Positions 33,838 to 36,698 of a stretch of DNA of 64,000 nt are shown here, piece after piece. The stretch is from Taiwanofungus camphoratus (Eukaryota > Basidiomycota > Agaricomycetes > Polyporales > Taiwanofungaceae), in contig CP021230.1 in assembly GCA_003999685.1 (NCBI GenBank), forward strand, positions 62,001 through 126,000. The letters run 5' to 3'. The notes below the pieces were generated by a model. The model was not told the DNA's origin and did not search any database. It saw only the letters and a list, made by a program, of their open reading frames with translations. Made by a program: the position numbers and the translations under genes. Each line of letters starts with the position of its first letter. Position 1 is the first letter of the stretch.

Positions 33838-36698
33838 ATGCCTTCTGTCCCCCAGAAAACACAGATCCTCGTCGTCGGCGGCGGCCCCTCGGGCTCGTAC
33901 GCCGCCGCTGCTCTCGCACTCGAGGGCTTCGACGTCGTCCTCCTCGAAATGGCAAAGTTCCCCAGGTCAGTGCCCGCTCGTCCCCCGTGTACGCCCTCAT
34001 GGCTCTGCCGTCCCCCCTCCCTTCTCCCAATACGTGATACCACCCTTCCCGTCACTTGCCCGCCCTCCCCCACTATTCATACCACCCACATCCCCCTGCT
34101 CACCTGCTGCCAACAAACACCCACACCCACCTCACCCCCGCCACAGGTACCACATCGGCGAGTCCCTCCTCCCCTCCGTCCGCCACTACCTCCGCTTCAT
34201 CGGCGCAGAGGACGCCGTCGCCGCATTCGGCTTCGCTCGCAAGGTCAGCAGCCCCTCTCTCTTCGCTTGCCCTGGGTTGGCTCGCCCCCCTTTCCTTTTC
34301 CGTTTGCGCGGCCCTCGCTCAGCGCGCCAGCCGTGCCCCCCTCGGCGCGCCCGGTGCGACGAGCGTCACACGAGCGAGTGAAACCTCCTCTCCACGCGCG
34401 CGCCACGCCCTGCCTCTCCCACCCGCGTTCGGGGCAGAGAGCAGGTGGCATGTCTCCAGTGGCCGGGACAAGTCCTCGTTGCGCGCCGATCCCCTCGCAG
34501 CCTGCCCCTCTTCGAGGCTCCTGGCGATCGGTTGCTAGTATGCCATCTCTTTTCTCGCGCTGTCTTGTACCAGGGCTGGCGCTGACGCCTTGCAATGTAG
34601 CCCGGCGCGGCGGTCAAGTTTAACCAGCATATGCGTGAAGGATGTACGTCCCCCCCACGCTCTGCCCTTCCTGTCCATCACGTCCTTGCCCGACGCCTCG
34701 TCGGCCGCTCACCACGCGCACGCACACACAGACACCGACTTTGTCGCGCTCGGCGCGCAGAACAGCTCGTGGAACGTCGTGCGCGCGCAGTTCGACCAGC
34801 TCCTCCTGCAGCATGCCGCCGCGTGCGGCGTGCGCGTGTTCGACCAGACGCGCGTCACCGAGGTGCGCTTCGCGCCCAGCGCCCGCAACGGTAAACCGAA
34901 CGGCGCGCGCACAGCGGACGGCAGCGCCCGCGAGCACGGTGACCGTGACGCCGCGCCGGAGCTCGGGCGCCCGACCGCGGTCGCGTACGAGACGGTGCGC
35001 GGGGGCACGGGCGAGATCGCGTTCGACTACCTCGTCGACGCCAGCGGGCGGCAGGGCGTGATGAGCACCAGGTGCGCAAGGACCCATCCTCGCGTGTAGC
35101 GCGGCTGACGCTCGCCTGTGCAGGTACATGATGAACCGCAAGTTCAACGCGGCCCTCCGCAACGTCGCCGTCTGGGGCTACTGGCGCGGCACCGGCATGT
35201 ACGGCCGCGGCACCAGCAGGGAGAACGCGCCGTGGTTCGAGGCGCTCAGCGGTACGTCGTCCGACCGTGCCCATCAGAGCCCCCGCTGACTCGCCCCCTC
35301 CCCCCCAGACGAGTCCGGCTGGGCGTGGTTCATCCCGCTCCACGACGGGCTCGCGTCCGTCGGGGTCGTCATGGACCAGCAACTGCTCGCCGCGCGCACG
35401 CGCACGGGCGACATCCCGCCCGCGCCGCCGTCCCTGCGCACGCCCGCCACGCTGCCCGCCTCGCCGCTCGCCGCGCGCTACGTCGGGCTCCTCGCGCTCG
35501 CGCCCGGGCTCCTCGCGCTCCTCGGCGCGGGCGAGCTCGTCGGCGCGCACGGCGAGGACGGGAAGGCGCCGCCCCTCGCGCGGAGCACGAGCGACTTTAG
35601 CTACGCCGCGGACGCGTATGCCGGCGAGGGCTTCCGCGTCGTGGGCGATGCCGGCGGTGCGTGTGTGTCCGCGCGCGTGTGTGTGTGTCTCGCGGGCGCG
35701 GCGTGGCGGCTGACGGCGGTGTGTGACAGCGTTCATCGACCCGTTCTTCTCGTCGGGGATCCATCTCGCCATGACCGGCGCGCTCGCCGCCGCCGCGTCC
35801 ATCTCCGCGTCGATCAGGGGCGACTGCTCCGAGCTCGCCGCCGCGCGGTGGCACACCGGCCGCGTCGCCGTTTCGTACACGAGGTGAGCAGAGCCCGCCG
35901 CGCTACCCACCCGCTGCGACCCGACGTGCGCGCGCGCGCGCAACGCAGGTTCCAGGTCGTCGTGATGAGCGCGTACAAGCAGATCCGCGCGCAGTCGGTC
36001 AACGTGCTCGCGGACCTGGACGAGAACAGCTTCGACAGGGCGTTTGCGTTCTTCCGGCCCGGTGAGTCCGCTGTTTCGCCGCTGCCCCAGCGGCCGTTCC
36101 CCGGTCTCATGTGGTTCTGCCGCTCACCTGTTCTTGTTTGTTTTTTTGTTTTGTTTTGGCAGTCATACAAGGAGGCGCGGACGTGGGGACCCGTCTGTCC
36201 GAGGACGAAATCCAGCGCGCGCTCGACTTCTGCGCGCACGTATTCGACCCGACGAGCCCCGAGCAACACGAGTCGGTGCGGAGGAAGCTCCAGTCCATCA
36301 GCGAGAGCACACCCAAGGACGACGACGACGGCATGCACGACGGGTCCGACGCGGAGCGGCGGCCGAACGGGAGCGCGGAGAAGAACGGCCGACAGGACGC
36401 GCACTCGGAGCCGATGAGCCTGCTGGACGTCCGCGCGCCCGTCGTCGACCCGGCAAGGCTGGAGACGCTCCTGCGCAACCGGCTGCACTTGCACTCTGCC
36501 GCCGAGCCGAGCGCGGAAACCCGCCTGGCGGATCTGCACGCGGACCCCGAGGTGAAGATGGTGCTCGACAAGGTGAACGCGCGGCGGATCATCCACGCGG
36601 AGCACGGGAGCGGCGTGAACAGTCTTGAGGAAGAAGCGGTGGAGGGGTTCGTGGTTAGGATGCAGAGAGGGAATTTAGGATTGTGCAGGCGTATTTGA
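33838..36698 (+). CDS. FAD-dependent halogenase (ArmH/Rdc2 phenolic type)
   Basis: About nine exons, starting [26 protein letters not shown] (residues 14-19) binds FAD. After the first intron come [15 protein letters not shown] and [20 protein letters not shown]; Lys 75 in RKPG sits where Rdc2-type halogenases carry their catalytic lysine. [11 protein letters not shown] and [12 protein letters not shown] follow. WAWFIP fits the WxWxIP motif that separates halogenases from monooxygenases. FRVVGDAG, joined over an intron to [18 protein letters not shown], is the second flavin motif. The C-terminal 170 residues include a polar Asp/Ser insert (about 36310-36420). The enzyme would use FADH2, O2 and chloride or bromide to halogenate an activated aromatic ring; ArmH relatives act on free substrates. 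A flavin reductase is not encoded next to it. Stop at 36696-36698. All exons join in frame. Confidence 0.9.

Follow-up and report, generated by a model that had tools for sequence, protein, structure and literature searches.

Judged by its sequence, a gene of Taiwanofungus camphoratus very probably codes for a halogenase which depends on FADH2, stands alone and is of the same kind as RadH, Rdc2 and ArmH. This is a genuine gene with an intact predicted reading frame, and its product is a new and sound member of the RadH-type phenol halogenase family, not an enzyme new in kind. It is found at positions 33838 to 36698 (+ strand) of the window, by which we mean the whole stretch of 64,000 nucleotides that was analyzed, C11:62001-126000. 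The genome has a size of 33.2 Mb in 15 contigs, 14 of them large; the other one, C15, is 150,773 bases long, and the GC content of its initial 1500 bases is 0.23. Contig C11 starts with a telomere-like array, so the halogenase gene begins 95.8 kb from the chromosome end.

The predicted gene model has nine exons, all on the + strand, and eight introns, all of them GT-AG, with sizes from 52 to 357 bases. The start codon is the ATG at 33838, and the stop codon ends at 36698. Exon 1 (33838-33965) contains the start codon and the GGGPSG flavin-binding motif, and the last codon of exon 2 (34147-34243) corresponds to Lys75, the putative catalytic lysine. Exon 3 (34601-34643) codes for PGAA...REG, with a split Y codon, and exon 4 (34732-35071) contains a loop, residues 139 to 170 approximately, which is discussed below. 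Exon 5 (35124-35251) is followed by exon 6 (35309-35656), with the GWAWFIPL and GDAG motifs, and by exon 7 (35730-35883), with the FIDPFFSSG motif, which includes Asp365 and Phe368. Exon 8 (35949-36061) leads to exon 9 (36163-36698), which codes for the C-terminal region, including a polar insert, and contains the stop codon. The spliced frame is open: 1887 coding bases, or 629 codons including the stop, which give a protein of 628 residues. Seven introns, all but intron 7, have a branch-like CTNAY site within 70 bases of their 3' end. A TATAAA sequence at 33770-33775 (+), 68 bases 5' of the ATG, may be part of the promoter. The alignment to RadH crosses all eight exon junctions, and of the 12 residues around each one, 5 to 10 are identical. 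This continuity, together with the expectation value of the RadH match (3.5e-125), places the gene far beyond chance. The boundaries and the in-frame joining of all exons, as proposed in a preliminary description of this DNA, are thus borne out by the eight GT-AG introns and the open frame of 629 codons.

The characteristic features of RadH are the motifs GxGxxG, Fx.Px.Sx.G and WxWxIP, and three essential residues: K74, D325 and F328 (excerpt of PMC10377541). All of them have a counterpart in the protein. GxGxxG is present as GGGPSG from residue 14, and WxWxIP, given as GWxWxxPL in a review (PMC9144378, excerpt), as GWAWFIPL from residue 249. GDAG is found at residues 358-361, followed by Fx.Px.Sx.G as FIDPFFSSG from residue 363. 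In the alignment, the essential residues of RadH correspond to K75, D365 and F368. Lys75 is part of RKPGAA, and GYTDF follows from residue 89. The motifs GGGPSG, WAWFIP and GDAG, as well as Lys75 in RKPG, had been listed in the preliminary description, and every one of them is found in the spliced protein.

Database comparisons agree with this placement. The Pfam Trp_halogenase family (PF04820) is matched with 78.4 bits, far over its cut-off of 21. RadH (8gu0) is the best of the 29 PDB sequences matched with expectation values up to 0.001, and 227 of the 438 aligned core residues are identical (52%). The second-best PDB match is CmlS (2.3e-39). Matches to MalA (5wgr and variants) are far weaker, 7.3e-7 at best; this enzyme is a fungal indole halogenase (PMC9144378, excerpt). 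Profile scores, PDB search and alignment all place RadH far nearer than the models of plain FAD monooxygenases, as expected for the flavin-dependent halogenase which had been proposed.

It is quite unlikely that the protein has kept the fold and no longer halogenates, being a hydroxylase, an oxidase or an inactive relic. A plain FAD monooxygenase profile, QhpG (NCBIfam NF049967), is also matched, but its 132.3 bits are under its own cut-off of 240, whereas RadH is the clear best match and its three essential residues are retained together with the motifs. A placement among plain FAD monooxygenases, the finding named beforehand as adverse to the proposal, is not what the profile scores and the PDB search show. 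Some caution comes from the assay of five uncharacterised RadH homologues: two were active and the other three were not, though solubility was noted as a problem (PMC10377541, excerpt). A halogenase sequence is thus no guarantee of activity.

The bacterial enzymes CmlS and CndH, which belong to the same superfamily, are variant B halogenases: They act on a substrate tethered to the carrier protein of a synthase. Both are among the next solved relatives after RadH, and RadH itself has been described as structurally nearer to variant B (PMC10377541, excerpt). In our alignment, the lysine is also present in CmlS and in one more bacterial halogenase. A carrier-dependent enzyme of this type is nevertheless very unlikely. 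The similarity to CmlS and CndH is much weaker than that to RadH, which uses a free substrate, and the CmlS profile (NCBIfam NF033113) gives 164.5 bits, with a cut-off of 900. The closest ketoacyl-synthase match on the same chromosome, in a search whose match count is a lower bound, is found at C11:1612 kb. In RadH, the carrier groove is filled by the C-terminal tail, and a similar tail may also be present here: Residues 598-626 align with the RadH C-terminus (491-519), a weak match of 4.1 bits which is not significant by itself.

We have compared the free-substrate halogenase proposed here with proteins from prokaryotes and viral contigs. Scanning the prokaryote genomes with the halogenase protein alone matched 21 stretches, none of which was confirmed as a relative. 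A scan with an alignment gave at least 57 loci (at least 592 stretches), and viral contigs gave six loci with a halogenase-like protein. A stop-free stretch of at least 250 residues with a blastp match was present in 57 of these 63 loci. The 44 loci scoring at least 60 bits were included in the tree and the other 19 were left out. With the halogenase and RadH, this gives 46 rows, in which RadH is the only other fungal one, so the tree gives no position within the fungal halogenases. The halogenase and RadH form a pair with 100/100 support, and their nearest neighbours are four Chloroflexota and Actinomycetota proteins, at 99/96. The tree contains several long branches, with a program warning for rows L076 and L080. 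MalA and the named plain monooxygenases are outside the tree: The separation from monooxygenases rests on the profile scores and the PDB search. Of the 44 rows other than RadH and the halogenase, 40 have the lysine, and the four which lack it are all among the five with the lowest scores.

The proteins from the viral contigs have the lysine in all six cases, and all the motif residues checked are present in the five whose frame reaches them. Several of these six proteins are near-identical.

Among halogenases of solved structure, the most similar is RadH from Chaetomium chiversii, a radicicol halogenase whose homologue is Rdc2. The sequence comparison was made with RadH. Besides their common residues and motifs, there are some differences: No polyketide synthase is seen near our gene, and the alignment shows a longer loop (residues 139-170 approximately) where the omega loop of RadH falls. 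This omega loop, Y138-P154, has been described as a feature which no other known FDH shares with RadH (PMC10377541, excerpt).

Another difference is a polar stretch rich in Asp and Ser in the last exon, at about residues 489-534, with DDDD at 503. The preliminary description was right about the existence of this insert and misplaced it by some 50 residues: The positions it had given, 440-480, align with RadH and lie outside the insert. If the weak tail alignment is right, 117 residues separate the RadH-like core from the tail, as compared with 48 in RadH. Nine amino acids (G, R, Q, S, P, E, K, D and N) make up 76% of residues 486-535, compared with 50% in the whole protein, a composition which suggests a disordered linker. 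It had also been proposed that the insert might mark a different substrate range. We have found nothing to tie them: The insert is linker-like in composition and comes after the part which aligns with RadH.

The insert might also be an intron, spliced out always or in some transcripts. Positions 36276-36395 (+), codons 489-528, have the form GTGCGG...CGACAG, and removal of these 120 nt, which are in frame, would take out exactly these codons (the polar stretch continues to about residue 534) and leave a mature protein of 588 residues. The candidate is stop-free in all frames, a sign which is indecisive since modelled intron 3 is also stop-free. It has no branch-like site; this counts against an intron, though modelled intron 7 is also without one and the sign alone is indecisive. 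Its pyrimidine content of 0.35 is below the range of the eight modelled introns (0.47-0.71), and so is the value for the 30 bases 5' of the acceptor, 0.27 as compared with 0.40-0.77. Third-position GC is 0.95 across the 40 codons. In view of the low pyrimidine content, the lack of a branch-like site and this third-position GC, we take the insert as coding: An intron is unlikely, and the insert is probably not a retained one.

Basidiomycetes make many chlorinated aromatics. A case for comparison is Armillaria mellea, whose armH1-5 genes are outside the melleolide cluster and whose enzymes chlorinate free melleolide F (PMC9144378, excerpt). The halogenase described here resembles ArmH1-5 in coming from a basidiomycete, in its stand-alone location and in its presumed use of a free substrate, a likeness drawn from published descriptions; unlike them, it has no second copy that the protein search could find. 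A stand-alone location is not a rule, since Floccularia luteovirens carries an armH4 which is reported inside the melleolide cluster (PMC8618933, excerpt). The strobilurin cluster, on the other hand, has no obvious halogenase according to an excerpt of PMC6158276, although the chlorinated strobilurin B is made. Halogenases are thus not always found beside the genes of their pathway, as in Armillaria and in the strobilurin case, as opposed to armH4 in Floccularia. Rigidoporus microporus has been reported to be without such halogenase genes (PMC7089950, excerpt). Beyond Armillaria and Floccularia, no characterised basidiomycete halogenase appears in the titles and opening abstract lines of the literature matches listed, which leave most subscription journals outside. 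The suggestion that these enzymes are uncommon in basidiomycetes finds no support here. RadH-like genes have been described as frequent in fungi, with about 2300 matches when 2008 fungal genomes were available, and the excerpt of PMC9144378 that gives this figure shows no split by phylum.

A search of the genome with the halogenase protein gave seven matches, each one corresponding to an exon or exons of its own gene. As all seven are inside the gene, no close paralogue is detected. An intact gene with no second copy detected would allow a clean one-gene test of orphan halogenases, by knock-out or expression, and the enzyme is also a new biocatalyst candidate. When the genome was searched with the PF04820 family, no match was obtained, even though the halogenase gene is present. 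Since the search missed this nine-exon gene, all our family counts in the genome should be considered as lower bounds.

If the enzyme works like other members of its family, a separate cellular reductase would supply FADH2, and oxygen would convert the reduced flavin to a C4a-hydroperoxide. Chloride (or bromide) would attack this intermediate to give hypohalous acid, Lys75 would hold or relay the halogen, and electrophilic halogenation of a free phenol would take place ortho to its hydroxyl. Candidate FADH2 suppliers are found in the genome, as there are flavin-reductase-domain matches at at least five places.

Ketoacyl-synthase domains are found in at least five places of the genome (at least seven matches). 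One of these matches, at C11:1612 kb, belongs to a polyketide synthase of the non-reducing type (C11:1609001-1617000), which has SAT, KS and AT domains, two carrier domains and a dehydratase-fold domain, which we take as the product template. Norsolorinic acid synthase and CTB1 are among its relatives of solved structure. This synthase is a possible source of the phenolic substrate, and an orsellinate-type phenol made by it is our preferred guess for the natural substrate, a reasonable guess which is nevertheless somewhat more likely to be wrong than right. The synthase is found on the other arm of C11, about 1.5 Mb from the halogenase, and their link is co-residence on one chromosome only. 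Another halogenating route in the genome is possible, since the Peroxidase_2 family, which includes heme chloroperoxidases, is found in at least four places (at least seven matches).

The class II peroxidase extension has at least one match in the genome. Beside it, on the same strand, there is an open frame whose nearest relatives are versatile peroxidases (4e-36), which we take to be Pleurotus enzymes. This is in line with a basidiomycete that has only a small set of ligninolytic peroxidases.

A Pfam scan of nine other proteins or open frames of the window showed no biosynthetic core gene: One each is a Solute_trans_a gene, an NmrA gene and an LCAT-like fragment, one has a DUF6830 match which does not reach its cut-off, and five have no match. 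A biosynthetic cluster around the halogenase gene thus finds no support in these nine proteins. The immediate neighbour is a divergent gene for an NmrA-like oxidoreductase (31364-32420, - strand, approximate gene model), beyond which is the Solute_trans_a gene; the LCAT-like fragment is downstream of the halogenase. The two divergent genes have in common an upstream region of 1.4 kb (32421-33837). The best PDB relatives of the reductase are triphenylmethane reductase (1.1e-36) and YtfG (1.5e-29), enzymes which reduce dyes and quinones. No second copy of it was found in the genome by a protein search, whose three matches all belong to its own gene. The reductase and the halogenase might form a two-gene module with one shared upstream region, in which quinones would be reduced to hydroquinones and then chlorinated. 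We consider this very unlikely. If true, chlorinated hydroquinone-type aromatics, for which basidiomycetes are known, would have a compact genetic route, kept in a GC-rich island close to a telomere.

This island covers about 9 kb (28-37 kb approximately) and contains the solute-transporter-like gene, the reductase and the halogenase. Its 2 kb tiles have a GC content of 0.60-0.71, compared with 0.42-0.52 elsewhere in the window, edges excepted. Of the 63 overlapping 2 kb tiles of the window, 7 have a GC content of at least 0.62; in nine other stretches, including three near flanks of the window, the figure is 1 tile out of 79. With the exception of the last one (0.55), the introns of the halogenase gene are as GC-rich as its exons, which points to regional composition rather than codon choice. 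An alien origin of the island was considered. The Solute_trans_a family has at least two further loci in the genome, so it gives no anchor for the island as native.

The search for tRNAs gave none, and no repeats of at least 40 bases were found in positions 20000-45000. By eye, several further open frames in the window and in the DNA flanking it look reverse-transcriptase-like. An open frame of 553 residues at 42836-44497 (- strand) has no Pfam match.

The telomere-like repeat has a unit of five bases, TTAGG, which appears as CCTAA at contig starts. Each of the 14 large contigs (C1-C14) has at least seven occurrences of CCTAACCTAA within its first 400 bases. In the same regions CCCTAACCCTAA is absent, and the CCCTAA units present are single and scattered. 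The TTAGG unit could be real or an effect of the assembly on homopolymers. A whole-word literature search on this repeat gave a single paper, which concerns an insect. At the end of C11, TTAGGTTAGG is found 12 times.
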